Source: Methylobacter sp. S3L5C (lineage in GTDB: Bacteria > Pseudomonadota > Gammaproteobacteria > Methylococcales > Methylomonadaceae). From it: a stretch of 64,000 nucleotides of DNA. This document shows, piece after piece, positions 11,211 through 60,073 of this stretch. Both the position numbers and the translations under genes were made by a program. The stretch lies in the NCBI RefSeq assembly GCF_022788635.1, contig NZ_CP076024.1, positions 3,759,503 through 3,823,502 of the forward strand. The letters run 5' to 3'. The notes under the pieces are model-generated. The model searched no databases. It was not told where the DNA came from and saw nothing but the letters and a program-made list of their open reading frames with translations. The stretch's first letter is position 1, and each line of letters starts with the position of its first letter.

Positions 11211-12637
11211 CAATACTTCGGATAGTTTACGCAGCGATAGCCCCATAGTTACAGAGGGCTGCAAAGCCTTGGCTAGATTTTATGGCAGTAAAGTCGATCC
11301 CTAAGTGGCAAGAAAACCTTTCCAATAAATGCGCATTGAATTTACGGGTCTTCCAACTGGCGATAGAAATGACGTTGCGGCCCGCACCTTCCAAAGCTTG
11401 CTGCCGGTCTTCCAGACGCAGCAGATTCAGTGCGGCCAGTGAAGCATTGAAATGGAAGTCCAGCTTTGCTTCGGAAGTCCCTTGGCAATCGCATAGTCCA
11501 GTGTATTGCTTGGCATCGCGGAACACGAATTCAATCTGAAATCTTGCCTTGTAATAGCGCAGAATGTCCATGGTGGCACAGTCAATGTCAGTGCAGAATA
11601 ATAATGCGGTATAGGTTTTGCCTTTTTCTTCCCGCACGATATAGACAATCCGCAGATTACGTTTGAACGTCGGCGAATTGACGATAGCGGTATAGACGTG
11701 CTGGCCATCGATTTCTCCGGCCAGTTCAAAGCGTGATAAATCATCAAAACACACTTTGCCTGCAAACTTGCGAGGTCGACCTTTGGCTTTTTGTTCACCG
11801 GTATATAACCAGCGCAGATCGGCATCATGCCGTAACTTACTGGTCACGTGCAAGCCATGTTCTACCACGCCATTAATAAACTTGGTCTTGGCGTAAAAGC
11901 TGTCGGCGACCAGATAACGGATTTTCCCCAACAGTCCCTTGGTATCCCGTTTGACGTGATCAAGGTAGCTATCTACCCGGGTGATCCGGGTTTCTTTGGG
12001 CGTTTTCTCGGCTTTGCTCTTCGGGGTCTTCTCGACATCTTGAGCCACCTTGGTTTCGCTATTTACGGTCGACTCTTTGACGACTTCAGCTACCTTCGGT
12101 GCTTTGGGCAAAGCGGGCGTTTGATAAGCCGACAGCGTATAGGCTGTGTTGTGTGTCACATCCACCAAGGCCAGCAGTGAAATTTCCAGTCCGCGTTCCG
12201 CTTGTCCCTGTGAACCGTTCCAAAACCAGTCCAGGCCGTAACTGCTGCGACCGCTTCTGGGTAAAAAGCTGGCATCAATTGCTGATATCCATTCACCCCT
12301 ATTCGTTAAATCTTTAAATCTTTCAAGCTCAGCAAATTGAAGGTAACAAAATCGAACGAGCGACGAAACCATCTCGAAAAGGTTTTTTCATTCAGAGCAC
12401 TATAACGGCCAAGGTTTCGGAAATTTACCCGTCCCGGCAGATAAGTCAGGGTTGTTAGCAAGATGAACATAAACTTACGCTGCGGTTTTGCTACACTGGA
12501 CATTTGCTGAAAAATGGGTTCTATTAAGTTCATGGAGGCCTTTGGCGTGTTGAGTTGTTATCGTCGTTGATTACAACTTCACATACTGAAGGCTTCCAGA
12601 CTATTTTTTAATCAAATCAAAACTGTCTGAAGTATTG
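11211..12637 (-). mobile_element. IS4-family insertion sequence, 1427 bp, with target duplication
   Basis: Terminal inverted repeats of 18 bp (11211-11228 and 12620-12637) agree at 16 of 18 positions, starting CAATACTTC and ending GAAGTATTG. The flanking hexamer CACTAA occurs at 11205-11210 and 12638-12643, a direct target duplication, so the ends are well defined. The element carries one transposase gene, now frameshifted. It sits just after the last gene of the esterase/glycogen run. Confidence 0.85.
11227..12533 (-). pseudogene. IS4-type DDE transposase, frameshifted by an 8-bp duplication
   Basis: The N-terminal part (75 codons from ATG 12533, beginning MNLIEPIFQQM) and the C-terminal part (about 380 codons, 11227-12372) are in different frames. 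In the overlap the octamer AAATCTTT occurs twice in tandem (12308-12323). Removing one copy joins the frames as SLKDLTNRGEWISAIDASF. Catalytic features of the IS4 group are present: D in IDASF, D in VADSFYAK, and the Y(2)R(3)E(6)K signature in YYKARFQIEFVFRDAKQ. A lysine/valine/glutamate-rich insertion separates the first two. The stop codon lies inside the terminal inverted repeat. The copy is probably inactive. Confidence 0.85.
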
Positions 12638-12648
12638 CACTAAAATAT

Positions 12649-13380
12649 TTAAATATAAAGCACTGCCATACGTCGCCAATAATAACCACTATGTGCCCTA
12701 TCATCCCAAACCACTAACTGATGATTAATACTTTTTTGCCATAATGTTGAACTTAACTGTTCATTATTCTGCAAAAACGGATCTTCTTTACCAATAACCA
12801 GAGTGATATCCATTTCCCTTAATTTGCCCAAGCGCCACGAACATTCCAGATTAGGCAAAAAATGACTGGGCGTATGAAAATAAATATCTTCGTTATAAAA
12901 ACCATCAAAAAGATCGTTAAAAAACTCTACATTCAGCGTAAGATCATAGCGACCAGAAAAGGCAACCAATTTTTGAAAAAACTGAGGATACCGAAAAACG
13001 ATATTAGCGGCATGAAAGGCACCCAGACTTAAGCCATGAGAAATCACACAATCATGCGGATTCTTGCTGTGCATAAAAGGTAACACTTCGTTCAAAATAT
13101 ATTCTTCAAAGTCTATATGCCGCTTAATACGGCCGGAAGGGTGCGCCCATTCACAGTAGAAACTTTCCGCATCAACACTATCAATACAATAAAGCTGTAT
13201 CCAGCCTTGTTCTATCTTGTGCCTTAAAGACGCGACCATCCCCAAGTTTTCATACTCGTAAAATCGTCCAATGCGCGAAGGAAAAACCAATACTTTGGCG
13301 CCGGCATGACCAAATACCAGCAACTCCATATCACGCTGCAAGCCATCACTCCACCACTTGTGATATTCGCGGTTCATCAT
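12649..13380 (-). CDS. Esterase-like alpha/beta hydrolase
   Basis: 243 residues, with the nucleophile elbow GLSLG inside ISHGLSLGAFHAANI. A candidate acid is in IGKEDPFL and the histidine in DDRAHSGYYWRRM. This resembles the single-domain bacterial esterase family (esterase D / feruloyl-esterase-like fold). The N-terminus MMNREYHKWWSDGLQRDMEL has no signal peptide, so the protein is probably cytosolic. GGAG precedes the paired ATG codons; either 13380 or 13377 may be used. It is 23 nt downstream of an acetyl-xylan-esterase-like gene and ends 6 bp from the target duplication of the IS4 element. Substrate unknown; context suggests an acylated sugar or polysaccharide. Confidence 0.7.
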   Translation of the reverse strand: MMNREYHKWWSDGLQRDMELLVFGHAGAKVLVFPSRIGRFYEYENLGMVASLRHKIEQGWIQLYCIDSVDAESFYCEWAHPSGRIKRHIDFEEYILNEVLPFMHSKNPHDCVISHGLSLGAFHAANIVFRYPQFFQKLVAFSGRYDLTLNVEFFNDLFDGFYNEDIYFHTPSHFLPNLECSWRLGKLREMDITLVIGKEDPFLQNNEQLSSTLWQKSINHQLVVWDDRAHSGYYWRRMAVLYI

Positions 13381-13403: not shown

Positions 13404-14366
13404 TTAGTCTTCGCCAAGCGGTGCAAAAAAAGCATCGAGTTGATTAATGAGTTCGTATTCTTGCTGTACCTGATTAGAGTAGTTATGATGCCCTGCCTCC
13501 AAAATGAACAATTGTTTTTGCTCCGGCAATGCGTTGTATATTGCAAACTGTCCGGGCGGAGCAACACAAGGATCAAATTTTGCGCAGGCACAATGCATGG
13601 GTATAGTGATTCGTTTTGCTGCCAAAGCTGCATCGTAATAGCGTAAAACGTTAAGTGTCTGTTTTTTATGCGTACAATAATATTGCTGAACGCTATGTGC
13701 ACTGCCATTGGAAGCAAGTCTTAATCGTAAAGGATGATGACCAAAAGAGGGTACATTAAGATGACCTCTGCTAATACGAGACTCCCACGCTAACGCCAAA
13801 GCGCCAATACCGCCGCCAAAACTAATACCCAAATAACCCAAGCGTCCTGCCAAATTTGGAAACAAGGACAACATAGCAGTAACTGCCAGCCATACATCTT
13901 CTACACACCCCCCCAGAATATAACGATCCTTTTGGTTAATGTTATGCAGGACATGCCAACAGGGTTCGGAAGAAATCGATGGTTGGGCACTGAGCCCCAA
14001 GCCACGAGAACAGGGAAACAACAAGGCCGCATCCTTAAAGGGCAAATGATAATCAGGCCCATCGCGTCCGCCATAGCCGTGTCCGACGATAAATCCACGC
14101 TTAATAACGCCAGAAGTTGGCACCATTAACCAACCTCGAACAGGAAAATTATCGGTAGAAATGTAACTGATCCCAAATACACGCCAGCCTTGACTGTCTT
14201 CACTAATAATCTTTGTCTGTGGCTGCGGATTAATAGTTAATGCTTTTTGATAGCGTTGCTGCCAAAAACTATCAAAGTCTTTCGGCTCTTTCGGCGGTTT
14301 TACCTCCAGCAACTGGTCAAGCGAATATCCATAAGTCGGGTCAAAATCATATTCAATTGTATTCAT
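13404..14366 (-). CDS. Acetyl-xylan-esterase-like hydrolase (CE7/AXE1 family)
   Basis: About 320 residues from ATG 14366 (MNTIEYDFDPTYGYSLDQLL). The N-terminal segment with PKDFDSFWQQRYQKAL is typical of the AXE1/cephalosporin-C deacetylase family. The nucleophile motif is GISFGGGIGALAL. A gating/oxyanion segment GHGYGGRDGPDYHLP comes earlier, and Asp/His candidates are in AKFDPCVAPPGQF and EAGHHNYSNQ. CE7 enzymes remove acetyl groups from sugars and oligosaccharides. No signal peptide is seen. The frame extends to a TTG at 14405, but the ATG is preferred. Co-directional with the PLD-like gene upstream and the esterase downstream. Confidence 0.72.
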   Translation of the reverse strand: MNTIEYDFDPTYGYSLDQLLEVKPPKEPKDFDSFWQQRYQKALTINPQPQTKIISEDSQGWRVFGISYISTDNFPVRGWLMVPTSGVIKRGFIVGHGYGGRDGPDYHLPFKDAALLFPCSRGLGLSAQPSISSEPCWHVLHNINQKDRYILGGCVEDVWLAVTAMLSLFPNLAGRLGYLGISFGGGIGALALAWESRISRGHLNVPSFGHHPLRLRLASNGSAHSVQQYYCTHKKQTLNVLRYYDAALAAKRITIPMHCACAKFDPCVAPPGQFAIYNALPEQKQLFILEAGHHNYSNQVQQEYELINQLDAFFAPLGED

Positions 14367-14522
14367 AACGCATTTATTGTTGCTTGATATTAATGTAGCC
14401 CTCAAAAATTCTGCTACTTATAACACGGTAATTACTACAGGATTATTTACACAGATGCTACGAGCTAATTAACTATCAGACACTACTGACAAGCCTTATC
14501 TTTCTTCTTTAAAATCACCTGA

Positions 14523-16118
14523 TCAGTAATAAACCCTGAACGAACGCTGTATTTGCTCAAATTCATAGAGGTAAGGTTGTGCTACCTGGTGATTATTAAC
14601 CACTACCAATAAGTCATGAGAAAAAACAGAGGTGTTATACCAGTTAAAACTGCCTTCTATAACAATTGAATCATCAATAACACAATATTTGGAATGAATC
14701 GGCGAATAAGGGACGGGGTGATCGTCTTGGCCATACACCAAACCGACTGAAATACCGGCATTTTTTAAGCGTTGTACTGCCGGTAATAACGGGCGATTAA
14801 GTTCATCTGCCATAGGTCGTGCAACACCAATCTGTCCTTGCCTGGCTAAATGTCCATTAAAAAGAACATGTACATAAACGCCTCTATTTTTGGCATGTAT
14901 CAAAGCATCAACCACACTATCATGATAATCGCCCAGCAAATCGCCCATTAAAAACAAACACAACTTGATCGAATGCCGGGCACGATGAATTTCTGCCAGG
15001 ATGGCGTGATGCGGTCGATAGGGTTTCCCGTTAAGCATCATCTGCCTGCCAAAGGTATAAAGCAGATTAAAATGACTTAAGGGATTAATGCCGTATTTTT
15101 GATTAACCCCACCACGCTGACTCTGAAATATATTATCAAGCAGTCGACAGACACCCTTGGAATGAAAAGTCATGCCGGATTCCCAATTAGCCCACCAGCG
15201 ATCGAAGGTGATATTGAATGAACCCAGTATGCAGTCCTCATCGTTAAAAATAACAAATTTGGTATGCATATCCGGCTCAACTTCAATGAGATGATGCTGA
15301 GGTGTACAGAAGACGCCTATCAACTCAAGTCGTGCACGTTTCAATCTTGCATAGTTGTGACTATTGGTGAGAGTCATCTTGCGCCAGTCCACAATACACT
15401 GCACCAAAACTCCCTGCTGACTGGCGTGAATTAAATGGGAAACAAAATCCGAGTCATCAATGCAGTCAACACTCACTTTAATGGTACAAAGTCGACCAGG
15501 GTTTTCCCACTTGCTCCGAATCACCTTATCGATATGATCATGGATAAAACGTTTGGGATGATAAGGGTGATATTGCTGACCTTTGGTAAATTTTGGCGTC
15601 AGGTTTAAGGATTCAAAATGGTGATTATACCAATCGACGTCGCTTTGTAATTCGGCGGCATTTAATTCGTAGGTTCGATAATTATTAGTCGTTGCCCATT
15701 CGCCGGTAATCTTTCTATACTGCGGAAGTGCATCGTGCGCTTGATGATTATCCATAAAAATATAATCATTTTGAGACGGGATAGAGTGCTCGTCCCGGTG
15801 CACAACAAATGAAAACTTGATGCAATTAATCGGGCCATGATTATTGGAAAACGGTAATATATAGAAATCACGTGTGCAGCGCTTATGCCGATCCCATTGG
15901 ATATCAAAAGCATCCGTATCAACAATGTAAGTTTCGCATAATCCATGGTCACGATACACTTTGAGAATAACTTTTAGATTAGCCTGAACGCCGAAGAACA
16001 TATCAAATTCTATTTTCCCCCAGCGCACAGCAAATTTATCATTATAGTCATTGACTCTCTGAAAATAGCCGCCCAAATACCCATGAACGGGAGTGGCATA
16101 GTGCTCTGCTATTTGCAT
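14523..16118 (-). CDS. Phospholipase-D-like protein with an N-terminal beta-rich domain
   Basis: 531 residues. Two PLD-type HKD motifs are visible: HTK at 285-287 with GSFN at 299-302, and HSK at 475-477 with D482 and GSFN at 489-492. The second fits H-x-K-x4-D-x6-G-S-x-N exactly; the first has Asn in place of the Asp. PLD enzymes cleave or transfer phosphodiester bonds through a phosphohistidine. Residues 1-135 form a Trp/Tyr/His-rich, probably beta-sheet domain ending YIFMDNHQAHD, whose end recalls the WDNN ends of starch-binding modules. No signal peptide is seen. It lies 72 nt downstream of the CBM-EEP gene. Substrate unknown. Confidence 0.75.
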   Translation of the reverse strand: MQIAEHYATPVHGYLGGYFQRVNDYNDKFAVRWGKIEFDMFFGVQANLKVILKVYRDHGLCETYIVDTDAFDIQWDRHKRCTRDFYILPFSNNHGPINCIKFSFVVHRDEHSIPSQNDYIFMDNHQAHDALPQYRKITGEWATTNNYRTYELNAAELQSDVDWYNHHFESLNLTPKFTKGQQYHPYHPKRFIHDHIDKVIRSKWENPGRLCTIKVSVDCIDDSDFVSHLIHASQQGVLVQCIVDWRKMTLTNSHNYARLKRARLELIGVFCTPQHHLIEVEPDMHTKFVIFNDEDCILGSFNITFDRWWANWESGMTFHSKGVCRLLDNIFQSQRGGVNQKYGINPLSHFNLLYTFGRQMMLNGKPYRPHHAILAEIHRARHSIKLCLFLMGDLLGDYHDSVVDALIHAKNRGVYVHVLFNGHLARQGQIGVARPMADELNRPLLPAVQRLKNAGISVGLVYGQDDHPVPYSPIHSKYCVIDDSIVIEGSFNWYNTSVFSHDLLVVVNNHQVAQPYLYEFEQIQRSFRVYY

Positions 16119-16190: not shown

Positions 16191-17696
16191 TTACTTCGGC
16201 TCAAAGATCATGAAATAACCACAGTGATCCGAAACGCGACCGTAATCTTCTTCAGTAAATAGCACCTTTCCTGAAATAATATGTAATTGACTGGCCTTAT
16301 TCATAAAAATATAGTCAATACGGTAATCATCGGCAAGGTAATGTTGCCAATGGGCGTCATTTACTTTAAATATCTTTTCAAATGCACCTTGGTCGTTAAC
16401 GGCCAGAAATTGATCATCATACACATTGGCGCCAACCACCAGACTGTAGCCCTCTGATCCTGCCGTGATATTAAAGTCACCACACAGCATGGTTGCACTC
16501 ACCGCTTCTGTTTGGTTATCTCGAACCCACTCACTTAGTTTGTTAAACTGCTCTGAAAAGCCGTCATCCCACCAACTCAGATGCGCCGAAAAAAAATTAA
16601 TCAAGCCCATGTAAGGCACATTAACTTGTGCCATTACGACTTTTCTGGAATGGATACTGTAGGCACTATGACTGCCCGAAACATATTTTGATGCCTGTTT
16701 CAAGAGCGGATATCGGCTTAAGATAGCAACGCCTTCGCGGTATTTATCAAAACCCAAATGCGACCAATCCGTGTAAAGATGATAAGGGGAATTAAGTCGA
16801 TCGTTTATTATTTTAGCTGAATTGCTGTTCCAGTCACCCTGTCCATCGTTCCAAAGCTCGGCGACTTCCTGAAAACAGACAACATCAACATCCAGATCGT
16901 TAATCGCTGTCGCTATTTGTGAAAATTTAAAATCCTGATTATCTTCCTGATAGCAGTGTAAATTAAGAATCATAACTTTTAACGGTTCATGACTAACCGA
17001 ATAGTTTTTATCCTGATTATTGTCCCAAAAAACCTTATCGTCGCATTCACAGGAAATGGTGTATTGCACTCGAAAAGCATTATCTATTTTGAGCAATCCT
17101 TGCCAAATCTGAGAACCATATTGATTTGGATTTCTGGCATTGCTGCCCGATTTTTTATCCCAATAATTTCTTTTGAAATTACAGGGAGTTTTATAACTAT
17201 GCTGCCAATTATCCGTTGTCCAGTGAATAGTCACTGTTTTGGCATTAACCGCATGATTTACTGATACGCTAACAGGAACGTATTTTTGCCCATCATTTAG
17301 TTTATTTACAAAGCCGATATTGAGTACTGGATGAGTGGTAACAACTTTAATTCCGGAATCGGCCTGACTGGAATAATTTAAGCCATATTTGTTATCCCAA
17401 TATTCTCTGCCCTGTACCTGATAACGCAAGGCAATAGTAATATTACCCGGCAGTGACTTATCTGCTGTGCTGATAGCTGTTATTTGCGCTTGCCAGTACT
17501 CTTCATGATGACCTAAATTACTATGCCAGGTTGCCGGTAGCATATGCCAAACGCCATCTTCACCAGCCCATAGAACATCGATTTTCTTGTCATGACCCTG
17601 ATTTTCTACCAGCATAAAAAAAGCCAATTTCTGGTGCAGCTCTCTTTTTTTTCTGCTGATAACATTTTCAACGTATAGCAGTTGAATCATTTTCAT
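16191..17696 (-). CDS. Endonuclease/exonuclease/phosphatase-fold enzyme with two CBM21-like domains
   Basis: 501 residues with three parts. Residues ~5-110 and ~125-235 are two beta domains ending EYWDNKYGLNYS (98-109) and VFWDNNQDKNYS (222-233), with TIHWTTDNWQHSYKT (157-170) in the second. These match the CBM21 starch/glycogen-binding pattern (DGW near the middle, WDNNxGxNY at the end). Residues ~240-501 are an EEP catalytic domain: N245 in MILNLHCYQ, E277 in CFQEVAE, then CGDFNIT, YRIDYIF and SDHCGYF, the metal-binding and catalytic set. EEP enzymes hydrolyse phosphodiesters or phosphomonoesters. GGAG precedes the ATG by 7 nt. No signal peptide. Downstream of glgA on the same strand, it may act on phosphate groups on glycogen (inference). 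Confidence 0.8.
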   Translation of the reverse strand: MKMIQLLYVENVISRKKRELHQKLAFFMLVENQGHDKKIDVLWAGEDGVWHMLPATWHSNLGHHEEYWQAQITAISTADKSLPGNITIALRYQVQGREYWDNKYGLNYSSQADSGIKVVTTHPVLNIGFVNKLNDGQKYVPVSVSVNHAVNAKTVTIHWTTDNWQHSYKTPCNFKRNYWDKKSGSNARNPNQYGSQIWQGLLKIDNAFRVQYTISCECDDKVFWDNNQDKNYSVSHEPLKVMILNLHCYQEDNQDFKFSQIATAINDLDVDVVCFQEVAELWNDGQGDWNSNSAKIINDRLNSPYHLYTDWSHLGFDKYREGVAILSRYPLLKQASKYVSGSHSAYSIHSRKVVMAQVNVPYMGLINFFSAHLSWWDDGFSEQFNKLSEWVRDNQTEAVSATMLCGDFNITAGSEGYSLVVGANVYDDQFLAVNDQGAFEKIFKVNDAHWQHYLADDYRIDYIFMNKASQLHIISGKVLFTEEDYGRVSDHCGYFMIFEPK

Positions 17697-17892: not shown

Positions 17893-19344
17893 TCATTCTT
17901 GAGTATAGCTTAAAAGGTTCTCATACAGCGCCAGATACTGCTCAGCACTACGTTGCCAGGAAAAATCTTTTTTCATGGCATTAATCTGCATTTTCTTCCA
18001 GGTATCAGGAATACTATATAAAACCAATGTGCGCTTGATGGCTTCCAGCAATGCACCTGAACTGGCTTCATTGAAGACAATACCACTGGCTGTGTGATTA
18101 CTTAATGATTCAGGTAAAGTATCAGTCACTGTATCGGCCAAGCCTCCAGTTTTTCTAACGATAGGTATAGTACCGTATCGTTGACTGTACATTTGATTCA
18201 AGCCGCACGGCTCAAATCGGGAAGGCATTAAGAAAATATCAGCACCAGCCTCGATAAGATGCGCCAGTGATTCATCGTAGCCGATAGTTATCGAAATTTT
18301 ATCAGGATACAAATCAGCCATTTTTTGCAGCTGTTTTTCAAACTTTTTATCACCATTGCCCAATAATGCAAATTGCATATCCATAGCAATCATCTCCGGA
18401 AGACATTCCAAAATCAGATCTATGCCTTTTTGCTCTACCAGTCGACTAATTAAACCAATGAGAGGAATACGATCGTTAACCGGAAGCGCAAATCGTGTTT
18501 GTAATTCAGCTTTGTTAAGTCGTTTTTTATTAAGCGTTGCAACCGTATAATTCTGTGCTATTAAGGGATCTGTTTCAGGATTCCATTGATCAAGATCAAT
18601 ACCGTTAATGATGCCGCCTAAAAACTCTTTGCGATGATCCAATAGCCCTTCAAGACCATAACCAAACTCTGGCGTTTGTATTTCCAAAGCATAGGTTGGA
18701 CTAACTGTAGTAATGTGATCGGCATAAACCAGACCACCTTTAATAAAAGACAACATCTCATGAAATTCCAGCCCGGCCGGATTCCATAATTGCCCTGACA
18801 AATTTAACAGGGCTGCCGTACTTGCAGGAAACAAGCCCTGATAAGCCATATTATGTATGGTAAATACGGTCGATGGCCGATCGCTTTCAAGCGATAGCAA
18901 GGCTGGAACCAAACCACTTTGCCAATCGTTACAATGAACAATATCGGGCTTCCAGCCCTGATTGGCCCTATCCATAGCCATTTCAACGGCAATGCGACAA
19001 AACAAGCCAAAGCGCTCAGCGTTGTTGGACCAAGGCTCACCCAACTCATCGACATAGGGATTACCCGGGTAGTTAAAGTATGCAGGATAATCAACCAGCC
19101 AGACAATTACATGACTATCGGGCATTCGGGTTTCAAGTATATTAATGTTTCTGTTATCAATCCGTATGGAACAAAGAAAACGGACATTTTCACTGGTTTT
19201 TAATGCTTGATAATTAGGAATAATCAGCTTTATATCTTGGGATAATTCGGCTAGCGCCTTAGGCAAGCTACCGCAAACATCCGCAAGCCCACCCGTTTTA
19301 ATTAAAGGATGTGCTTCACTGGTAACAAAGAGAATTTTTTTCAT
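17893..19344 (-). CDS. glgA: Glycogen synthase GlgA
   Basis: GT5 enzyme transferring glucose from ADP-glucose to the growing alpha-1,4-glucan. The ADP-glucose-binding KTGGLADV motif is at residues 17-24 in PLIKTGGLADVCGSLPKAL. Other landmarks are HCNDWQSGLVPAL, TIHNMAYQG, LISRLVEQKGIDL and PSRFEPCGLNQMYSQRYGT, the last with the catalytic-site glutamate. Length 483 is typical. It lies 93 bp downstream of glgB on the same strand, with a repeat hairpin in between. It matches the ADP-glucose made by the GlgC encoded divergently. Confidence 0.95.
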   Translation of the reverse strand: MKKILFVTSEAHPLIKTGGLADVCGSLPKALAELSQDIKLIIPNYQALKTSENVRFLCSIRIDNRNINILETRMPDSHVIVWLVDYPAYFNYPGNPYVDELGEPWSNNAERFGLFCRIAVEMAMDRANQGWKPDIVHCNDWQSGLVPALLSLESDRPSTVFTIHNMAYQGLFPASTAALLNLSGQLWNPAGLEFHEMLSFIKGGLVYADHITTVSPTYALEIQTPEFGYGLEGLLDHRKEFLGGIINGIDLDQWNPETDPLIAQNYTVATLNKKRLNKAELQTRFALPVNDRIPLIGLISRLVEQKGIDLILECLPEMIAMDMQFALLGNGDKKFEKQLQKMADLYPDKISITIGYDESLAHLIEAGADIFLMPSRFEPCGLNQMYSQRYGTIPIVRKTGGLADTVTDTLPESLSNHTASGIVFNEASSGALLEAIKRTLVLYSIPDTWKKMQINAMKKDFSWQRSAEQYLALYENLLSYTQE

Positions 19345-19437: not shown

Positions 19438-21831
19438 TTATAACTTTAAGATCAAAGCTCCCAAAGGTGGCAAGTCAAGGCTGATGGAATGTGGGCAATT
19501 CATCCAGGGCGTAGGTTCTGACACCACCGCACCATTACCCACATTACTGCCATCATAATATTCGGAATCAGAATTAAAAATCTCAGTGTAAGTACCTGCT
19601 TCAGGCACACCAAGCCGATAATTTTCTCTGGGAACCGGCGTAAAGTTAAGCACAATAACCAACTCTTCAAATTTGTTTTTGCGACGATAACTAATAATGG
19701 ACTGTTCAACATCATGACAATCAATCCACTCAAACCCATGATGATCAAAATCATGCGCAAATAAAGCCGGATGTGTTTTATAAAGATGATTAAGATCTTT
19801 AACTAAAGTTTGTACTCCCTTGTGATGAGGGTAATCCAAAACGTACCAGTCTAATTCTTTATTGGCATTCCACTCCGTACCTTGACCAAACTCACAGCCC
19901 ATAAACAACAGTTTTTTACCTGGATAGGTATACATAAATGTATATAACAATCGTAAATTAGCGAATTTTTGCCAAGCATCACCCGGCATTTTACTCACTA
20001 ACGAACCTTTCCCATGAACGACCTCATCATGCGAGAAAGGCAGTGCGAAGTTTTCAGTAAAAGCATAGAGCATACCGAAAGTAAGCTGGTCATGATGGTA
20101 TTTGCGATGTATCGGCTCCTCACTCATGTAAGAAAGAACATCATGCATCCACCCCATATTCCACTTCATCGAAAAGCCTAAACCACCTGTCCATGTCGGA
20201 CGGGTGACCTGAGGCCAGGATGTGGATTCTTCAGCCATCATGACAGTGCCAGGATGCAGGTCATGAGTGACGGTATTAAGTTCTTTAAAAAATTCAATAG
20301 CCTCCAAATTCTCGTTGCCGCCATACATATTGGGAATCCAGTCATTTTCTTCGCGTGAGTAATCGAGATAAAGCATAGAAGCCACCGCATCAACTCTTAA
20401 GCCGTCCAGATGAAACTCTTTCAACCAGAAAACTGCACTGGCGAGTAAAAAATTTTTAACCTCATTACGTCCGTAATTGTAAATTAAGGTACCCCAGTCG
20501 CGATGTTCACCTTTACGCGGATCTTCATGTTCATAAAGGGCACTGCCATCAAAACGCGCCAGTGCAAAAGCATCTTTAGGAAAATGAGCAGGAACCCAAT
20601 CCAGAATAATACCTATCTCATTTTTGTGGCAGGTGTCGACAAAATAGCGAAAATCATCAGGGGTGCCATGACGACTGGTCGGCGCAAAATAGCCTGTAGT
20701 TTGATAGCCCCATGAACCATCAAAAGGGTGCTCGGTAACAGGCAACAGTTCAATATGGGTAAAGCCCATTTGTTTGACATAGTTGACAAGCTCAACTGCC
20801 AACTCCCGATAAGAAAGAAAATTGCCCTGATTATCCCGTCGCCATGAACCCAGATGAACCTCATAGATAGCCATAGGTTCGTGCAGCCAATCGTGTTTTG
20901 CACGCCGTGACACCCATTCCTTGTCCTGCCAAGTATAGCTGTTTTCTTCGACAACAATAGACGAGGTATTTGGGCGAAATTCAAATTGCTGTCCATAAGG
21001 ATCAGTTTTTAGCAGGATTTCATTAGTATTTCGATTTAAAATTTCAAATTTATATAAGCAACCTGTCTTTAGGCCGGGAATAAATAGCTCCCATAATCCA
21101 CTACCACCAAGACTTCGCATAGGATGACAACGGCCATCCCAGCGATTAAAGTCGCCAACCGCACTCACCCGACCCGCATTGGGGGCCCACAGCGTAAATA
21201 ACACGCCATCGACACCATCAACACTATGCAGGTGTCCACCCATTTTTTTGTAAATATGCCAATGCTTTCCTTCGCCATACAAATGTATGTCAAATTCAGG
21301 TAATTGGGGACCAAAATCGTATGGATCGTAATTCTCGTGGGTGTAACCGTTTTTATCAATCCAGGTTAACTGATAGTGTTTCGGCAACTTCGGTAACTCA
21401 TCTTCTTTCGCGTAATATTCAAAAAAATCAGTACCTGCTATCCTGTTAAGTGCAGGACCATTATTACTGAAGCAAACTGTTTCTGCGTAAGGCAGATAGA
21501 CTTTAACCTGAACTTGATTATTCTTTGGATGGCGGCCTAAAACTGAAAAAGGATCATGATGCCTTGCTTCGCTTATTTTTAGTGAATCAGGATCAAGAAT
21601 ATTCTCTACTTCTTTTGCTACCAGGGCATTTACAGGTACTGAAATTGAAACAGGGACTTTCACTTTTTCCTTTATTTTTACACTTTTTGTCGAAGTAGAA
21701 TCAGATATGCTCAATGCCGGTTTTTTTTCAATAATAGCTGTCGATTCAGAGTCATGCAGGTTCGCTTTCAGTTTTTCTGAGATTGCTTTTTTAGCATCAG
21801 AGTCTAGAGTGTTATTAGAACGCTTTTTCAC
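19438..21831 (-). CDS. glgB: 1,4-alpha-glucan branching enzyme GlgB
   Basis: GH13 enzyme forming alpha-1,6 branches in glycogen. An N-terminal CBM48-type region ([11 protein letters not shown], and [19 protein letters not shown]) precedes the catalytic barrel. The barrel carries [19 protein letters not shown] (nucleophile Asp), [13 protein letters not shown] (acid Glu) and [12 protein letters not shown] (third Asp). The protein is 797 residues, about 70 longer than E. coli GlgB (728). The excess is a Lys/Ser/Val-rich N-terminal tail before residue ~80 with no recognisable domain. Divergent from glgC with about 110 bp between the starts, so a shared regulatory region is likely. Confidence 0.95.
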
Positions 21832-21944
21832 TTTGAATGGCCTCGGTGTAGTAGTAGAATGAATGCTAGTAATAGAATTAATGTTAGGCGAATCTTACCA
21901 AAATAACAAACAGTTGTAATATCTATATCAATATGGAGATAAAA

Positions 21945-23225
21945 ATGTCAGCGTCCAGCAATAAAAAGCATGATCATAATGTCGGTCATTTAACCCGTAA
22001 TACAATTGCATTAATATTAGCTGGTGGCCGAGGCTCGCGGTTGATGAACATGACAGATTGGCGTGCCAAGCCCGCTGTTCCATTTGGTGGCAAGTTTCGC
22101 ATTATTGATTTTCCGTTATCAAATTGCGTTAACTCAGGTATACGTAAAATTGGTATTTTAACGCAATACAAATCAGATTCTCTTATTCGCCACATTCAAC
22201 AAGGATGGGGATTTTTACGAGGTGAATTTGGTGAATATGTTGATTTAATGCCTGCACAACAAAGACACAATGAAAACTCCTGGTATCAAGGAACTGCCGA
22301 TGCTGTTTTTCAAAACATCGATATTCTCCGTAGTCGTAATCCGGAACATATTCTGGTTTTGGCCGGCGATCACATTTACAAAATGGATTATGGCGCAATG
22401 CTGGCCGACCATATTGAGAAAAATGCTGACCTGACCATAGGTTGCTTTGAAGTCTCACTGGAAGAAGCATCGGCTTTTGGAGTGATGGATGTTGATAGTA
22501 ACCGACGCGTTAAAGCTTTCGTAGAAAAACCTGAAAATCCCCCCGTTATGCCAGGCAGAACCGATACCGCTTTAGCCTCTATGGGTATCTATATTTTTAA
22601 TGCCAGTTTTCTTTTTGAACAATTGCTTAAAGATGCCGATACTAAAGACTCTACACATGATTTCGGCAAAGATATTATTCCTGCAGTTATTGATAGATAT
22701 CTGGTCAATGCCTATCCTTTTTTAGATTTACAAAGTGGTGAGCAAAGCTACTGGCGTGATGTAGGTACTATAGATGCTTACTGGGCTGCTAATATGGAAT
22801 TAATTGGTGTTAATCCTGGCTTGAATTTATATGATACCACTTGGCCAATATGGACTAATCAAGAACAAACGCCGCCAGCAAAATTTGTTTTTGATGATGA
22901 TGAACGACGCGGACAGGCTGTTGATTCTATGGTTTCAGGAGGCTGTGTAATTTCAGGCGCTAAAATAAGACATTCATTATTATTCTCAAATGTCCGTGTT
23001 AATTCATTTACGTCGGTACAAGACTCTATCGTTCTGCCCCAAGTCAACATAGCGCGCCATTGCCGCATCACCAAAGCAATTATAGAAAAAGGTTGTGAAG
23101 TTCCCGAAGGCACTATCATTGGCGAAAACCGGGCGGACGACGAAAAAAGATTTTTTGTCAGTCCTGGTGGCGTTGTGTTGGTGACTCCTGATATGTTGGG
23201 ACAAAAATTGCATTATGTTCGGTAA
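21945..23225 (+). CDS. glgC: Glucose-1-phosphate adenylyltransferase GlgC
   Basis: Makes ADP-glucose from glucose-1-phosphate and ATP, the committed step of glycogen synthesis. [16 protein letters not shown] is the nucleotide-binding loop, followed by [33 protein letters not shown] and [12 protein letters not shown] are ADP-glucose pyrophosphorylase signatures, with FVEKP later. The C-terminal beta-helix region is present. The frame opens at 21933, but the ATG at 21945 ([10 protein letters not shown]) has GGAG six bases upstream and is preferred, giving 426 residues. First gene of the plus-strand glgC-GH57-malQ run. Confidence 0.96.
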
Positions 23226-23450: not shown

Positions 23451-25142
23451 ATGCCCAACAAAAAAAAATTGAAACTGGTCTTGTGCTGGCACATGCACCA
23501 ACCAGAGTATAGGGATTTACACTCAGGAGAATTCAAATTGCCGTGGACGTATCTTCATGTAATTAAAGACTATGTTGATATGGTTGCTCATCTGGAAGCC
23601 GTGCCTGAAGCTAAAGCAGTCGTCAATTTCGCGCCTATTTTACTGGAACAAATTGAAGAATATACCAACCAAGTCAATGGTTATTTACATAATGGCTATT
23701 CTATTACTGATCCTTTACTGGCCGCTTTAATAGCTCCCACTGTTCCTGAAAATTCTAAAGATTGCTGGAAACTGATTAAAAACTGTCTCCGTGCCAACCG
23801 GGACAGACAAATAAACCGTTATCCAGCGTTCAAACAATTAGTAGAAATGACCGAGTGGCTTGAACAACATAATGACTCATTTCGCTATATCAATACCCAA
23901 TTTATTAATGATCTGTTAGTTTGGTATCATCTGGCATGGATAGGAGAAACCGTAAAATTATCAGATGACCGGGTAAAACGCTTAATAGAAAAATGTTCCG
24001 ATTATAGCCTCGATGACCGAGTTGAAATGGTCAGAATTATAGGCGGGCTTCTGGAAAATGTACTTAAAAGATATAAGGTATTAGCAGAACAAGGGCAAAT
24101 CGAGCTGTCAGTAACACCTTATGCACATCCCATTATGCCACTATTACTGGACTTGCAGACAACACATGAAGCAATGCCTGATGCACCTTTACCTGAACGG
24201 GATACTTATCCAGGGGGTGAGGAACGTGTTAAATGGCATCTTGAAAAAGGCGTACAAACTTTCATGCGTTTTTTTGGCACTAAACCTAAAGGCTGCTGGC
24301 CATCAGAAGGTAGTATCAGCAAACAAACACTAGAAGTACTGAGTGACTTTGGCTTTAGTTGGGCAGCAAGTGGTGGTACGGTTCTACAAAATAGTTTACA
24401 TCTATCTGACCATAAAGAAGCAATCGGAATACACCATCCCTTTAAGCTAAAAGATACCAAAATAGCCTGTTTTTTCAGGGACGATGGGTTGTCTGACATG
24501 ATAGGTTTTGAATATTCAACATGGCACGCCGACGATGCTGTTGGTGATTTTATTCAGCATTTGGAAAATATCGCTACCCACGAACCGGGGGATAAAATCG
24601 TTTCAATCATCATGGATGGCGAGAATGCCTGGGAATATTTCCCTGATAACGGTTATCACTTCCTGAGTGCTTTATATAGCCGGTTAGCCAGTCACCCAAC
24701 CATTGAATTAAGCACTTTTTCGGATTGTTTAAAAAATAAAACGACTGTCAAACCCTTAACTAAATTAGTTGCAGGTAGCTGGGTTTACGGAACTTTTTCA
24801 ACCTGGATAGGATCTCCGGACAAAAACCGCGGTTGGGAAATGCTGGCTGACGTAAAAGTTGCCTTTGATAATGCCATGACCACCAACCACTTAAGCGATC
24901 AACAAGTTCAACAGGCCCAAATTCAGCTTGCTGTTTGTGAAGGTTCAGACTGGTTTTGGTGGTTTGGTGACGATAATCCTGGCGAAGCAGTTAGCAGTTT
25001 TGAGAAACAATTCCGGCTTAATTTAACCAATCTGTATCAATTATTAGGCGAAAACCCTCCCGCTTATCTGGCCCTGTCATTTACGCACGGCGCTGGTAAT
25101 CCCGCTATGGGCGGAGCAATGCGGCCAAGCTCTGAACATTAA
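23451..25142 (+). CDS. Glycoside hydrolase family 57 protein (alpha-glucan-active)
   Basis: 563 residues. It begins KLVLCWHMHQPEYRD, the GH57 N-terminal signature. The catalytic-nucleophile region is GCWPSEGSISKQTLEVL, with the glutamate in PSEG, and the acid region is IIMDGENAWEYFPDNG. SWVYGTFSTWIG and DWFWWFGDDN are also typical of the alpha-amylase-like GH57 subgroup. GH57 members hydrolyse or transfer alpha-1,4-glucans. With malQ 16 bp downstream it is probably an amylase or glucanotransferase in glycogen turnover. No signal peptide, so probably cytosolic. Confidence 0.88.
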   Translation: MPNKKKLKLVLCWHMHQPEYRDLHSGEFKLPWTYLHVIKDYVDMVAHLEAVPEAKAVVNFAPILLEQIEEYTNQVNGYLHNGYSITDPLLAALIAPTVPENSKDCWKLIKNCLRANRDRQINRYPAFKQLVEMTEWLEQHNDSFRYINTQFINDLLVWYHLAWIGETVKLSDDRVKRLIEKCSDYSLDDRVEMVRIIGGLLENVLKRYKVLAEQGQIELSVTPYAHPIMPLLLDLQTTHEAMPDAPLPERDTYPGGEERVKWHLEKGVQTFMRFFGTKPKGCWPSEGSISKQTLEVLSDFGFSWAASGGTVLQNSLHLSDHKEAIGIHHPFKLKDTKIACFFRDDGLSDMIGFEYSTWHADDAVGDFIQHLENIATHEPGDKIVSIIMDGENAWEYFPDNGYHFLSALYSRLASHPTIELSTFSDCLKNKTTVKPLTKLVAGSWVYGTFSTWIGSPDKNRGWEMLADVKVAFDNAMTTNHLSDQQVQQAQIQLAVCEGSDWFWWFGDDNPGEAVSSFEKQFRLNLTNLYQLLGENPPAYLALSFTHGAGNPAMGGAMRPSSEH

Positions 25143-25158: not shown

Positions 25159-26634
25159 GTGAATAACCTTTTAAATAAACGTCGGGCAGGTATTCTGCTC
25201 CATATTACTTCGCTGCCAGGCACTGATAGACAAGGTAATTTAGGTCAAGAAGCCTATAATTTTGTCAATTTCCTGCATGATTCAGGTGTTGGGGTATGGC
25301 AAACATTGCCCTTGGGTATGACCCATGCAGATGGTTCTCCTTATCAATGCCTCTCTGCTCACGCAGGTAATCCAATATTCATTGATATTCTTGGGTTGGT
25401 TAAACTGGGTTGGTTACCATTGTCAGAGCAATGTGACGAGTGTCAGGCAACTTCCGCGTTTAATAAAAGCTGTTTAGTCGCAAAAGCTTTTAAAGGTTTT
25501 TTAGAAAGCGCAAATCAAATAGACAAGGATGATTTTGCCGATTTTTGCCAGAAAAAAGCCTATTGGCTTGATGATTTTGCTTTATTTATAGCACTTAGAA
25601 TTGTATTTAATCAACAATGCTGGAACCAATGGCCTGAACCTTTCAAGGAAAGAGAGCTGGTTGCCCTTAATGAAGCACGTCAACGGCTAGCTGACAGTAT
25701 TGAAAATATTAAATTTGAACAATATGTTTTTTTCCGGCAATGGATGGAATTAAAAGCCTATGCCAACAACAAAGAGGTACTTTTGTTTGGCGACATTCCT
25801 ATTTTTGTATCTTATGACAGTTCTGATGTCTGGGCTCATCGTGAGGTTTTCAAACTTGATGAATCAGGTGAAATGTTGGTTGTTGCAGGTGTCCCACCGG
25901 ATTATTTTTCCGAAACCGGCCAGCGCTGGGGTAATCCGCATTACGATTGGGATTATCTGAACAAAACCGGCTTTGCATGGTGGGTTGAACGAATGCAAAC
26001 TCAGCTTGAACAATTTGACATTCTTCGCATTGATCATTTTCGGGGCCTGGAAGCGGCCTGGGAAATACCTGCCGATGAACCAACCGCCCAAAATGGTCAG
26101 TGGGTTAAAGCGCCTGGAAAAGATTTATTAAATGCACTGCAAAGCCATCTTGGCACCATTCCCTTGGTAGCTGAAGACTTGGGGATTATTACCGATGAAG
26201 TCGATGAATTGAGAGACAGCTTTGGACTACCCGGCATGAAAATCTTACAATTTGCTTTTGGTAGCGGTCCTGACAACCCCTATTTACCGGGTAATCATGA
26301 AAGAAACTGTGTGGTTTATACAGGGACTCATGACAACGATACATCGGTAGGTTGGTCGAAAAGTATCAGTGATCATGAAAAAAACTACGTTTACGAATAC
26401 CTGGGTAACCCTTCAATGCCGGTGCATTGCGCAATTATACAAGCGGCTTTGGGATCAGTTGCCAACCTTGCTGTTATACCCATGCAGGATATTCTTGAAC
26501 TGGGCTCCGAGGCTCGAATGAACACCCCCGGCACCACCGTAGGAAACTGGAAGTGGCGTTTCCAATGGGATCAATTATCACATGACCAAGCTACCCGATT
26601 TGCCCATCTGGTAGCACTATTTAATCGAAATTGA
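25159..26634 (+). CDS. malQ: 4-alpha-glucanotransferase MalQ (amylomaltase)
   Basis: GH77 enzyme that disproportionates maltodextrins. RAGILLHITSLPG is the family N-terminal signature. Catalytic residues are visible in ILRIDHFRGLEAAWEIP (nucleophile Asp), VAEDLGIITDEVD (acid/base Glu) and YTGTHDNDTSVGW (third Asp). Length 491 fits the ~500-residue bacterial class, not the longer E. coli MalQ. It follows the GH57 gene by 16 nt, so the two are likely co-transcribed. A large hairpin follows the stop. Confidence 0.94.
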   Translation: MNNLLNKRRAGILLHITSLPGTDRQGNLGQEAYNFVNFLHDSGVGVWQTLPLGMTHADGSPYQCLSAHAGNPIFIDILGLVKLGWLPLSEQCDECQATSAFNKSCLVAKAFKGFLESANQIDKDDFADFCQKKAYWLDDFALFIALRIVFNQQCWNQWPEPFKERELVALNEARQRLADSIENIKFEQYVFFRQWMELKAYANNKEVLLFGDIPIFVSYDSSDVWAHREVFKLDESGEMLVVAGVPPDYFSETGQRWGNPHYDWDYLNKTGFAWWVERMQTQLEQFDILRIDHFRGLEAAWEIPADEPTAQNGQWVKAPGKDLLNALQSHLGTIPLVAEDLGIITDEVDELRDSFGLPGMKILQFAFGSGPDNPYLPGNHERNCVVYTGTHDNDTSVGWSKSISDHEKNYVYEYLGNPSMPVHCAIIQAALGSVANLAVIPMQDILELGSEARMNTPGTTVGNWKWRFQWDQLSHDQATRFAHLVALFNRN

Positions 26635-46599: not shown

Positions 46600-46880
46600 A
46601 ATCAGATGCCGTTTAAAAAGCTTTCCCGGTTACCTGTTATCAATCTCCCGCTTGCAAATACAGCCAGGCAAGCCGAAATAAAACCTCCTGAAGGTAGCAT
46701 ATGGATACTTTTCCGGCTTACATGGGTTTACTACAGCCTTTATGAATGTATTACACAGGTTAAAACCTTAATAAAGATGTCGCTAATTTTTCTTGTTACG
46801 CAGGTATCGTATTTTTAGCAAATAAAATGATGTTATTTGCTCATCATCCAACCCATTTCAGTACCAAGGAATTAATACCT

Positions 46881-48329
46881 ATGAAAGCTCTAAAATTAAC
46901 CCTGATCGCTACAGCAGTGGCATCTTTACTATCGCCACTAGCAGCACAAGCGACTAGTGAATTTGACAACTTTACGCCTATGACAGGCAACACTACTCCT
47001 GTCAATCCGGGATCGGCGACGCCTTATAAATTATCTTCACCCAACTTCAGCCAAGAAACAATTTCTGATCGCGGCACACAGAACACTTTGGTACCCGGCT
47101 CTTATTCCGGCAACCCGGATATGATGACTGCCAATGAAACAGGTGTAGATGCCGGTCGTTACTTATTCATGCCTTTCGAGACTGGCTCAGCCGGCGTGGT
47201 AAGAATTGACCTTCAAGATACCAACTACAACACTCGCACCACAACTATAGTGGCTCCAGGCACACAAGACTTTGTATCTGGTGACGCATCACGTTGGACT
47301 CCTTGGGGCAGCTATTTGACTGCCGAAGAATCGTGGGGAACAGGTAGCACTAAAGGCCGTCTTTTCGAAATCGACAATGCCACCACAGCAACTGCCAACG
47401 GCGGCAACTTTATACAACAAAGCATCATTCCACGTGTATCCCATGAAGGTCTGGCTTTCGATAATAACAACAATCTCTATTTCGTCGACGAGTTAAACGG
47501 CGGCAGCATTTACAAATATACTTCGGCCAATCCTTTAGCACTTAACGGTAGCGATTTCTTTAGCGCCGGCCAGACTTTCGCATTGAAAGTACAAGCAGGC
47601 GGTCAGTTCGAAGGCACTAGTGGCGCAGCAATTACAGGTCTTGCAACTTGGGAAGCTATCACCAACACAACTGGCGGCGCTTTGGCCGGTATTTCTACAG
47701 TGCTGGCTGATGGTACCATCGACGGTCGCGTATCTGCTGACAATGCCGCTGTTATGGCTACCGGCTTTAACCGTCCGGAAGATCTGGAGATCCAGGATCT
47801 GGGTGACGGCAACCAGTTCCTGTACTTCGCTACTACTGACTCAGACAACGATGCCAAAGGCTCTAATGGTAGTGGACGTGTTTATTCATTCAATCTGGCC
47901 AGCAGTGAAGTCAAGTTATTTGCGGACAGCAACACTATTGATGCGGCAACAGGCCTGAGCGTTGGCGGTGAATTCAAAAGTCCGGACAACCTGGCGATTG
48001 ATGCCGAAGGCAATATGTATATTGTCGAAGATCAGAATGGCGGTGTTGAGGATGTCTGGTTTGCAATGGATGCCAATCGTGATGGCGTAGCTGATTCAGT
48101 CTCTAAGTGGATCAGCTTGACAACGCAAGGCGCTGAAAGCACAGGTCTATACTTTGACAAGTTTGACACAACCAAAGCTTATATCAACGTACAGCATCCA
48201 GCTGACGGCATTGATCGTACCATCATGCTGACTGCACCGGCAGCTGTTCCAGTACCTGGCGCTGTTTGGTTGTTCGGTTCTGCGCTGATGGGCTTTCTGG
48301 GCTTTTCACGTCGCAATAAAAAAGCCTAA
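46881..48329 (+). CDS. Secreted PhoX/DUF839-like protein with PEP-CTERM-type sorting tail
   Basis: 482 residues from ATG 46881 (MKALKLTLIATAVASLLSPL, signal ending AQA), with AAGGA upstream. The body resembles the DUF839/PhoX alkaline-phosphatase-like beta propeller: SRWTPWGSYLTAEESWGTG, SHEGLAFDNNNNLYFVDELN, NRPEDLEIQ and SPDNLAIDAEGNMYIVED. The C-terminus VPVPGAVWLFGSALMGFLGF followed by SRRNKKA is a VPxP motif, hydrophobic helix and basic cluster, i.e. an exosortase-type sorting signal. It is probably surface-exposed or bound to exopolysaccharide. PhoX enzymes need Ca/Fe; activity here is unproven. A strong terminator follows. No exosortase is in the window. Confidence 0.8.
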   Translation: MKALKLTLIATAVASLLSPLAAQATSEFDNFTPMTGNTTPVNPGSATPYKLSSPNFSQETISDRGTQNTLVPGSYSGNPDMMTANETGVDAGRYLFMPFETGSAGVVRIDLQDTNYNTRTTTIVAPGTQDFVSGDASRWTPWGSYLTAEESWGTGSTKGRLFEIDNATTATANGGNFIQQSIIPRVSHEGLAFDNNNNLYFVDELNGGSIYKYTSANPLALNGSDFFSAGQTFALKVQAGGQFEGTSGAAITGLATWEAITNTTGGALAGISTVLADGTIDGRVSADNAAVMATGFNRPEDLEIQDLGDGNQFLYFATTDSDNDAKGSNGSGRVYSFNLASSEVKLFADSNTIDAATGLSVGGEFKSPDNLAIDAEGNMYIVEDQNGGVEDVWFAMDANRDGVADSVSKWISLTTQGAESTGLYFDKFDTTKAYINVQHPADGIDRTIMLTAPAAVPVPGAVWLFGSALMGFLGFSRRNKKA

Positions 48330-59251: not shown

Positions 59252-60073
59252 GTGCTATGTAAAGTAATGCAGGTTAGTACCAGCGCCTTTTATGCGTGGG
59301 CGAAAATGCCTAAAGATACTGACAAAAAAATACGGCAAAAACAGCTTGAAGCTAAGGCGATTGAGCTATTTGGAGAAAACAAGAACGTTTACGGTTCTCG
59401 CCGTTTATCGGAAGCTTTTATAAAAGAAGATATTCAGGTCGGGCGCTATAAAGCAAGGCAATTGATGAAAAAATTGGGCTTAAAACCACGCTACCCAAAA
59501 CGTTTCCAAGTGACTACAGATAGCGATCATAATGAGACGATTGCTCCCAATCTGTTAAACAGGCAATTTGATGTTGCTGCGCCCAATAAGGTTTGGACGA
59601 CCGATATTACTTACGTCTGGACTCTTGAAGGCTGGCTGTACGTCGCGATTGTCGTTGATTTATTTTCCAGGCAAGTAGTGGGCTGGTCCATTGCCGATAA
59701 CATGCGTACCTCACTGTGTGTTAATGCCTTACAAATGGCGTTTTGGCGGCGAAAACCTGAACCAGGCTTGGTGCATCATTCGGATCGGGGTAGCCAGTAT
59801 GCTAGCCATGAATACCGAAGTCATTTAGGAATAATGAAGATGCAGCAGAGCATGAGCCGTAAAGGTGATTATTGGGATAATGCGCCGACCGAGCGATTTT
59901 TTCGAAGCTTAAAACATGAGCAACTAAACTACGAAAAATTCAAAGCTAAAGAGGCGGCAAAGCTGAGTATTATTGATTATTTGGCGTTTTATAATGGCAA
60001 ACGATTGCATTCAACATTAGGATACCAATCCCCACTGGAATTTGAACGAGAATTTTACAAGAAGACTACTTAA
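59252..60073 (+). CDS. IS3 orfB, DDE integrase-type transposase
   Basis: 273 residues from GTG 59252. The frame is open upstream to the orfA TAG (reading RTPIKYGFIREQQKTFPVTV), as expected if normally made by -1 frameshift from orfA. rve-domain catalytic residues: WTTDITYVW (D), HHSDRGSQYAS (D) and DNAPTERFFRSLKHE (E). An HTH_21 segment (NVYGSRRLSEAFI) precedes it. The gene itself is intact, but production of the fused transposase is doubtful because of the altered orfA end. Confidence 0.85.
   Translation: MLCKVMQVSTSAFYAWAKMPKDTDKKIRQKQLEAKAIELFGENKNVYGSRRLSEAFIKEDIQVGRYKARQLMKKLGLKPRYPKRFQVTTDSDHNETIAPNLLNRQFDVAAPNKVWTTDITYVWTLEGWLYVAIVVDLFSRQVVGWSIADNMRTSLCVNALQMAFWRRKPEPGLVHHSDRGSQYASHEYRSHLGIMKMQQSMSRKGDYWDNAPTERFFRSLKHEQLNYEKFKAKEAAKLSIIDYLAFYNGKRLHSTLGYQSPLEFEREFYKKTT

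Follow-up and report, generated by a model that had tools for sequence, protein, structure and literature searches.

The DNA analysed here (hereafter the window) is a stretch of 64,000 nucleotides from the genome of the methanotroph Methylobacter sp. S3L5C (contig NZ_CP076024.1, positions 3,759,503 to 3,823,502). An open reading frame on its reverse strand (16191..17696) encodes a protein of 501 amino acids in which two tandem CBM21 domains are joined to a catalytic domain of the EEP (Exo_endo_phos) type. This gene, referred to below as the fusion, begins with an ATG codon preceded by GGAG. Directly downstream on the same strand, 72 bases from the fusion stop, starts the gene of a PLD-superfamily protein (14523..16118; 531 amino acids), and directly upstream lies the glycogen synthase gene glgA (17893..19344, reverse strand). 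An initial annotation had described the fusion as tandem CBM21-like domains and an EEP phosphoesterase inside a glycogen locus, an architecture and a setting that the searches reported below bear out. The main additions made here are the PLD-type partner and the conservation of the fusion throughout the methanotroph family in two glycogen settings, together with an apparent restriction to that one family and a stand-alone EEP paralogue in the same genome.

Glucan-binding and catalytic domains of the fusion

Pfam recognized both parts of the protein. CBM_21 matched two stretches with 61.4 bits (E 1.2e-16) against a cut-off of 28.9, and Exo_endo_phos matched with 55.6 bits (E 8.2e-15) against a cut-off of 24.5. 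The first CBM21 domain covers approximately residues 1-120 (17337..17696, reverse strand) and the second approximately residues 121-238 (16983..17336, reverse strand), with the best CBM_21 stretch at residues 136-234. Each contains one of the two patterns noted in the initial annotation, WDNKYGLNY at residues 100-108 and WDNNQDKNY at residues 224-232, and hhalign relates the two domains to each other with a probability of 95%. The initial annotation had proposed a profile search of this N-terminal part as a check on its reading; CBM21 was matched at E<=0.1 in 19/19 fusion members examined, above the Pfam cut-off in the window's protein, and CBM53 more weakly in 18/19. When the domains were scanned singly against the genome, domain 2 scored 44.6 bits and domain 1 scored 27.1 bits, slightly below the cut-off of 28.9, so that the identity of domain 1 as CBM21 rests on profile searches. 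A profile built from the N-terminal 237 residues of the fusion in 19 loci matched PPP1R3B (1.5e-7) and PPP1R3C (2.9e-7) through domain 2, and the starch-binding domain of Rhizopus glucoamylase (2djm, 2.7e-7) and PPP1R3A (9.1e-4) through domain 1. The single sequence gave concordant matches with phmmer against PDB, in which residues ~138-240 were aligned to the CBM21 domains of PPP1R3B (3.1e-6) and PPP1R3C (1.3e-3). The closest solved relative of domain 1 is the domain of the Rhizopus oryzae enzyme, although that domain belongs to a starch-degrading hydrolase, whereas the domains of the fusion precede a phosphoesterase-type domain in a protein in which, as the initial annotation also held, no signal peptide is apparent on inspection by eye, no predictor having been run.

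Both domains keep residues that contact glucan in solved CBM21 domains. The placements given here are our reading of the profile alignments, and conservation was counted over 52 distinct fusion sequences, some of which are possibly one gene taken from two records. The site-I contacts listed for the CBM21 structure of PPP1R3C (PTG) are R187, W193, Y196, C235, W246, N248 and N253 (PMC9582199), and the corresponding positions in domain 2 are H158, W164, Ser or Thr, a small residue, W224, N226 and N231. Among these, W164 and N226 are conserved in 52/52 sequences, N231 in 50/52 and W224 in 49/52. The Rhizopus starch-binding domain is reported to use W47, Y83, Y94, N96 and N101 in site I and Y32, F58, Y67 and K34 in site II (PMC3398936). 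Here W47, Y94, N96 and N101 correspond in domain 1 to W50 (52/52), W100 (49/52), N102 (52/52) and N107 (49/52), and F58 and K34 correspond to an aromatic residue at position 57 (W, Y or F; 52/52) and to K37 (52/52), while the position of Y32 is variable (Y 18, H 15, P 14, F 4, C 1). The site-I core is therefore kept in both domains, with site II partial in domain 1 and missing from domain 2. Each CBM21 domain retains a plausible alpha-glucan site, and glucan targeting of the fusion is, as a prediction from sequence, well supported. In a relative of the same genus, a protein of 224 amino acids (L051 601-1275, G013:C81) matches CBM21 in two stretches (Pfam 2.9e-19) but has no EEP domain.

The EEP domain (PF03372) occupies residues 236-501 (16191..16991, reverse strand). 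Nine positions (N245, H247, E277, H372, D407, N409, D461, D490 and H491) are invariant in 52/52 distinct sequences, and we take them to be the catalytic and metal-binding positions of EEP enzymes, in agreement with the complete set recorded in the initial annotation. By phmmer against PDB, residues 238-494 matched the EEP protein 3teb of Leptotrichia buccalis (1.8e-22). When the EEP domains of 19 fusions and the stand-alone paralogue were combined in a profile, 3teb was again at the top (3.5e-35), with far weaker matches to staphylococcal beta-hemolysin (2.4e-4) and ANGEL2 (5.8e-3). On our reading of the alignment, the N-x-H of the first motif is shared with 3teb and with stand-alone bacterial EEP proteins, which provide the closest catalytic domains; 3teb differs in being a 266-residue chain without a carbohydrate-binding domain. 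The structure predicted for the fusion, which the initial annotation had recommended as a check, has a mean pLDDT (predicted local distance difference test score) of 57.7. In a Foldseek search with this model, the best 50 of 77 matches at E<=0.001 were EEP-type proteins, led by 3teb, then neutral sphingomyelinase and TDP2, and including ANGEL2 and PDE12. No carbohydrate-binding module stood among the best 50 of the 77 matches. The stand-alone paralogue in the same genome (L050 5809-6651; G000:C1 ~3990817-3991647) has 280 amino acids and ~40% identity, lies away from the glycogen genes and has the NLHxYQE and HLSW motifs in common with the fusion; similar frames occur in several relatives.

The CBM21 domains of PPP1R3A, PPP1R3B and PPP1R3C resemble those of the fusion in sequence and in the W and N glucan contacts. 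There, however, CBM21 is carried by a PP1-recruiting regulatory subunit, whereas in the fusion it is joined to a catalytic domain of its own. Because CBM21 serves as a targeting device in the PP1 subunits (PMC9582199), the EEP domain might be a scaffold or sensor instead of an enzyme. The fusion would then resemble the glycogen-targeting subunits as a bacterial analogue, bringing GlgA and branching enzymes to the particle. We consider this very improbable: the catalytic residues are complete and invariant in all 52 sequences, and in 19 aligned fusions identity to the window's protein is 64-77% in the catalytic domain compared with 42-65% in the CBM part.

Distribution of the fusion and its PLD-superfamily partner

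Matches to the fusion at E<=0.001 were found in 163/237 genomes of the window's methanotroph family. Counting those with a best E of <1e-100 plus one whose contig begins inside the gene (G027), and leaving out four weaker ones (G033, G286, G376 and G432), the fusion is present in 159/237 genomes and 22/29 genera. Conservation across 22/29 genera rules out a chance or mis-called open reading frame at 16191-17696. In a scan of named genomes, which reaches close relatives only, the nearest match was Methylobacter psychrophilus (93% identity), a species placed in Methylococcaceae by NCBI, and the other four were Methylobacter sp. KS41, a Methylococcales metagenome-assembled genome, Crenothrix polyspora and a Methylococcaceae metagenome-assembled genome. 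No match was found in the 24 genomes sampled from other families of the order. In Pseudomonadota samples of 299 genomes each, the whole-protein query found, besides the window's genome, only seven with matches confined to the EEP region, and the tandem-CBM21 profile matched the window's own genome alone; the matches listed besides the window's own were all from the same class. A plasmid search with the fusion matched 70 records, the best 20 of the 70 in the EEP region and none covering 80% of the query, and with the PLD protein it matched six, likewise none covering 80%. The search beyond Pseudomonadota consisted of the plasmids and the named-genome scan. Within the genomes sampled, the fusion is apparently restricted to one methanotroph family.

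The possibility that CBM21 is common in the class was rejected, as only 2/185 class genomes, the window's included, had a match. The other (G075) belongs to another family of the class and encodes a CBM21-matching protein of 24.3 bits, below the cut-off, with no EEP domain in frame (L049 81-2494, G075:C14). Directly after it on the same strand is a reading frame with a PHP domain (Pfam 8.9e-11), a metal-dependent phosphoesterase type of a third fold. CBM21 and a phosphoesterase-type domain may have come together here independently, although a single case proves nothing.

The partner gene encodes a protein with two HKD-type motifs behind an N-terminal domain of ~150 residues. Its match to Pfam PLDc_2 (E 3.1e-35, 121.3 bits; cut-off 27) establishes membership of the PLD superfamily by profile. 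The second motif (H475, K477, D482) is present in 47/47 sequences, as are H285 and K287 of the first, in which N292 replaces the usual D (HxKx4N), again in 47/47. Among the matches listed, fragments and paralogues aside, the PLD protein has an identity of ~68-99%, compared with 50-93% for the fusion. Its N-terminal 150 residues matched no Pfam family (E<=0.5), no PDB chain (E<=10) and neither CBM21 domain, and have 61-77% identity to the window's in 17 other loci. The structure model of the PLD protein (mean pLDDT 39.2) was not used; in it the N-terminal domain is beta-rich at very low confidence. This domain could be a new glucan-binding domain.

The two genes are largely retained together. 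Across the 237 family genomes, 155 have both, four the fusion only, six the PLD gene only and 72 neither, where weak PLD matches in G356, G412, G428 and G434 were left out and fragments in G001 and G005 taken as present. A Fisher value for this association takes no account of common ancestry, and we do not read it as a probability. In all four fusion-only genomes the contig ends next to the fusion, in the direction in which a neighbouring PLD gene would be expected, as judged from the contig sequence in G010 and G280 and from match coordinates, which begin at bases 111 and 207, in G263 and G407. No fusion was found beside the PLD gene in the two inspected (L098 and L099) of the six PLD-only genomes. 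In G325, G326, G336 and G377 both genes are retained although far apart on one contig, and because the pair is kept when distant, we favour a shared role of the two proteins over mere hitch-hiking.

The PLD partner shares its two HKD-type motifs with NucT, DrmC and mitochondrial cardiolipin hydrolase, and differs from them in its own N-terminal domain, in the N for D of the first motif and in scores far below the NCBIfam cut-offs. PADLOC models, applied without cut-off, matched it as DrmC (9.8e-12) and MkoC (1.9e-11). These scores, together with the fold matches of the EEP domain to TDP2, would suit a pair of glycogen-bound nucleases, for which glycogen would be the scaffold and nucleic acids the substrate, for instance when cells are starved or stressed. 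Such a role seems distinctly improbable, as NCBIfam DrmC reaches 42 bits against a cut-off of 133 and NucT is also below its cut-off, PADLOC returns nothing for the fusion, no DISARM-type names occur among the Pfam-scanned neighbours in the window, L081 and L082, and the genes are associated with glucan enzymes. Assignment of the PLD protein to DISARM as DrmC was rejected on the same 42 of the required 133 bits, despite the PADLOC match.

Lipids offer another substrate for the pair. These methanotrophs have intracytoplasmic membranes, and a sphingomyelinase-like EEP enzyme could act with the PLD protein as phospholipid enzymes that remodel membrane lipid where glycogen particles touch those membranes. 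The fold match to human neutral sphingomyelinase, the weak profile match to bacterial beta-hemolysin (2.4e-4) and a weak match of the PLD partner to mitochondrial cardiolipin hydrolase (9.4e-4) are consistent with this. However, all of these are matches at superfamily level only, no membrane segment was noticed by eye, and the fusion bears glucan-binding domains and is tied to glucan genes, so that we regard a role in lipid remodelling as improbable.

Glycogen genes around the fusion

In the window, the gene order upstream of the fusion bears out the glycogen locus of the initial annotation. Beyond the GlgA gene (Pfam Glyco_transf_5, 4.2e-80) lies that of a GlgB branching enzyme with CBM48 (19438..21831, reverse strand; Pfam). 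Divergent from these, on the forward strand, are an open reading frame that we take to encode a GlgC-like ADP-glucose pyrophosphorylase (21933..23225), found in the same place in many relatives, a GH57 family protein (23451..25142; Glyco_hydro_57, 5.6e-54) and the 4-alpha-glucanotransferase MalQ (GH77; 25159..26634; Pfam 2.1e-168). On the other side of the pair, two further genes of the reverse strand, for an AXE1-type (acetyl xylan esterase) hydrolase (13404..14405; Pfam 1e-23) and a putative esterase (12649..13380; Pfam Esterase, 1.4e-6), are possible additional members of the cluster. Only some relatives have the AXE1 gene after the PLD gene, and the esterase gene accompanies it; both lie 3' of the PLD gene in the loci of 12 relatives too, one of which (L063) has partial matches only. 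Their presence hints at ester groups on the glucan.

Genomic context was surveyed at one locus in each of 50 genomes. At a distance of up to 5 kb, the fusion is accompanied by glgA or glgB in 29 loci, by a GH57 branching-enzyme gene in 10, by both in two and by neither in nine; it thus stands by glycogen genes in 41/50 loci, and the PLD gene is within 1 kb of it in 45/50. In six of these nine loci (L039, L060, L061, L062, L064 and L096) the contig extends <5 kb upstream of the fusion, and in a seventh (L056) glgA is 5.8 kb away. Ten open reading frames scanned near the fusion in four of the nine include members of the DUF3422, CvfB, TerD and acetate kinase families. The GH57 setting is exemplified by L081 and L082, in which a DUF4912 gene accompanies a GH57 branching enzyme with BE_C; a GlgX-like GH13 gene occurs in L081 and several other loci of this kind. 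Since the fusion is found in two unlike glucan settings and not in one conserved block, a function in glycogen metabolism is better supported. The DUF4912 and GH57 branching-enzyme pair that adjoins the fusion in other genera also exists elsewhere in the window's genome, without the fusion (L101 3570-5820; G000:C1 ~1552569-1554819). A promoter scan gave 20 promoter-like sites, below the number in shuffled sequences (mean 28.2), and terminator-like sites were at chance level (8, compared with 7.8 in shuffles).

The genes for glycogen synthesis are more widely distributed than the fusion. GlgA matched strongly in 152 of the 159 fusion genomes (two weak, five none) and in 62 of the 72 genomes with neither fusion nor PLD gene (two weak, eight none). 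The idea that every genome with glycogen synthase also has the pair was rejected, as GlgA (E<=0.001) occurs in 224/237 genomes, four of these matches being weak, compared with 159/237 for the fusion.

Linkage to glgA, glgB and glgC and to branching-enzyme genes would also suit enzymes for which glycogen is a parking place only. The substrates of the EEP and PLD proteins would then be phosphorylated, soluble intermediates of glycogen synthesis, for instance ADP-glucose, sugar cyclic phosphates or nucleotides formed at the particle surface, and the two proteins would thereby regulate how much carbon flows into storage. The fold matches to PDE12 and to ANGEL2, titled a 2',3'-cyclic phosphatase, agree with such substrates, but tandem glucan-binding domains would exceed the need of a soluble-substrate enzyme, and we hold this role to be unlikely, if still to be reckoned with.

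A possible role in editing glycogen phosphate

The initial annotation had suggested a carbohydrate-targeted phosphoesterase acting on glycogen phosphate or on phosphodiesters attached to glycogen, an interpretation that finds partial support in the CBM21 domains and in the position beside glycogen genes. The best single reading, to which we give a probability of roughly 40%, is that the fusion is a phosphoesterase tethered to glycogen, from which it and its PLD-type partner remove phosphoesters. Observed in the sequences are the domains, the intact active-site residues, the glucan-site residues, the proximity to glycogen genes in two dissimilar contexts and the co-retention of the pair; docking on glycogen, catalysis, the substrate and a two-step order are what we infer from them. 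The fusion would be a cytoplasmic, metal-dependent enzyme, with the two CBM21 domains docked on outer alpha-glucan chains of the glycogen particle, thereby positioning the EEP domain on the particle surface to hydrolyse phosphoester groups borne by the polymer. The PLD-superfamily protein may take part in this process as a second phosphodiesterase. In the likeliest arrangement, the PLD-type enzyme would open phosphodiester links on glycogen and the EEP domain would remove the remainder, so that GlgA and branching enzymes would meet clean chains. Covalent phosphate on alpha-glucans is reported to reduce the affinity of branching enzymes, a bacterial enzyme included, which gives a reason for its removal (PMC13011383). 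Because of this effect and of the two polymer-binding domains, we regard glycogen-borne phosphoesters as better candidate substrates than soluble compounds, lipids or nucleic acids.

Several observations weigh against this assignment. We know of no report of methanotroph glycogen carrying phosphate or phosphodiesters. The closest solved EEP protein, 3teb, is annotated with the family name only, and the weaker matches by profile and by fold extend across beta-hemolysin/sphingomyelinase-type proteins, TDP2, ANGEL2 and PDE12, so that the fold does not pick a substrate. Both proteins match nucleases and lipid enzymes at superfamily level, the PLD partner scoring against nuclease models too. On the binding side, our reading of the profile alignments shows site II of PTG not to be conserved in domain 2, and the positions of Rhizopus Y83 and Y67 to be non-aromatic in domain 1. 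Two unlinked loci with >5 kb on both sides of the fusion (L079 and L085) have none of the searched glucan genes within 5 kb, and glycogen synthesis does not need the pair, because 62 of the 72 pair-less genomes have a strong GlgA match. Whether glycogen is phosphorylated in organisms without laforin, including bacteria, is named as an interesting point for speculation (PMC13011383). The fullest form of the proposal, in which methanotroph glycogen bears phosphoester groups or groups attached by phosphodiesters and the family evolved its own two-enzyme editing system, unrelated to laforin, with PLD cutting the diesters and the docked EEP enzyme finishing, must be considered doubtful.

Eukaryotic glucan phosphatases include laforin, which combines CBM20 with a dual-specificity phosphatase, and SEX4, which combines a dual-specificity phosphatase with a CBM21-type module (PMC2714694). 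The fusion resembles them in that a domain of a type that cuts phosphate bonds is joined to an alpha-glucan-binding module and tied to glycogen or starch metabolism. It differs in that it is bacterial, carries two tandem CBM21 domains at the N-terminus, has a PLD-type partner, is of putative activity and possesses a metal-dependent EEP fold instead of a cysteine phosphatase. Among the features of the laforin/SEX4 class, the glucan-binding module in the same chain is present and the dual-specificity (Cys) catalytic domain is not; since the catalytic fold differs, the fusion is not a member of that family. The parallel with laforin drawn in the initial annotation accordingly does not extend to fold, the laforin catalytic fold being unrelated, and any likeness is one of function: by analogy, the fusion may work like the laforin/SEX4 glucan phosphatases.

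According to a survey of 2009 (Gentry and Pace), in no bacterial or archaeal protein is a phosphatase combined with a carbohydrate-binding domain, and a bacterial glucan phosphatase was considered unlikely (PMC2714694). The fusion is a possible exception whose catalytic fold differs, and two-enzyme editing, if true, would constitute a glucan phosphatase system in bacteria. Glycogen phosphate is studied in animals, in which loss of laforin leads to Lafora disease. The term CBM21 is absent from the available portion of a 2024 review of prokaryotic alpha-glucan enzymes (PMC11046441), and the main text of a paper on glycogen in Methylobacter (PMC10030640) contains no mention of a phosphatase or phospholipase. 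No bacterial CBM21-EEP protein is described in the titles and abstract openings searched, subscription journals being mostly outside their coverage. The fusion, retained in 22/29 genera, and the PLD protein raise the possibility that bacteria edit the phosphate of their stored glycogen, and make the question of bacterial glycogen phosphorylation directly testable. In organisms relevant to methane cycling, they point to an aspect of carbon storage for which the literature searched contained no study.

Three other features of the window were recorded. A DDE transposase gene, probably an insertion sequence, lies at 11227-12372, between the esterase gene and a gene presumably rpsF-like. An alkaline phosphatase of the PhoX family is encoded at 46827-48329 (Pfam 1e-18), and an rve-type integrase/transposase with a helix-turn-helix at 59252-60073.

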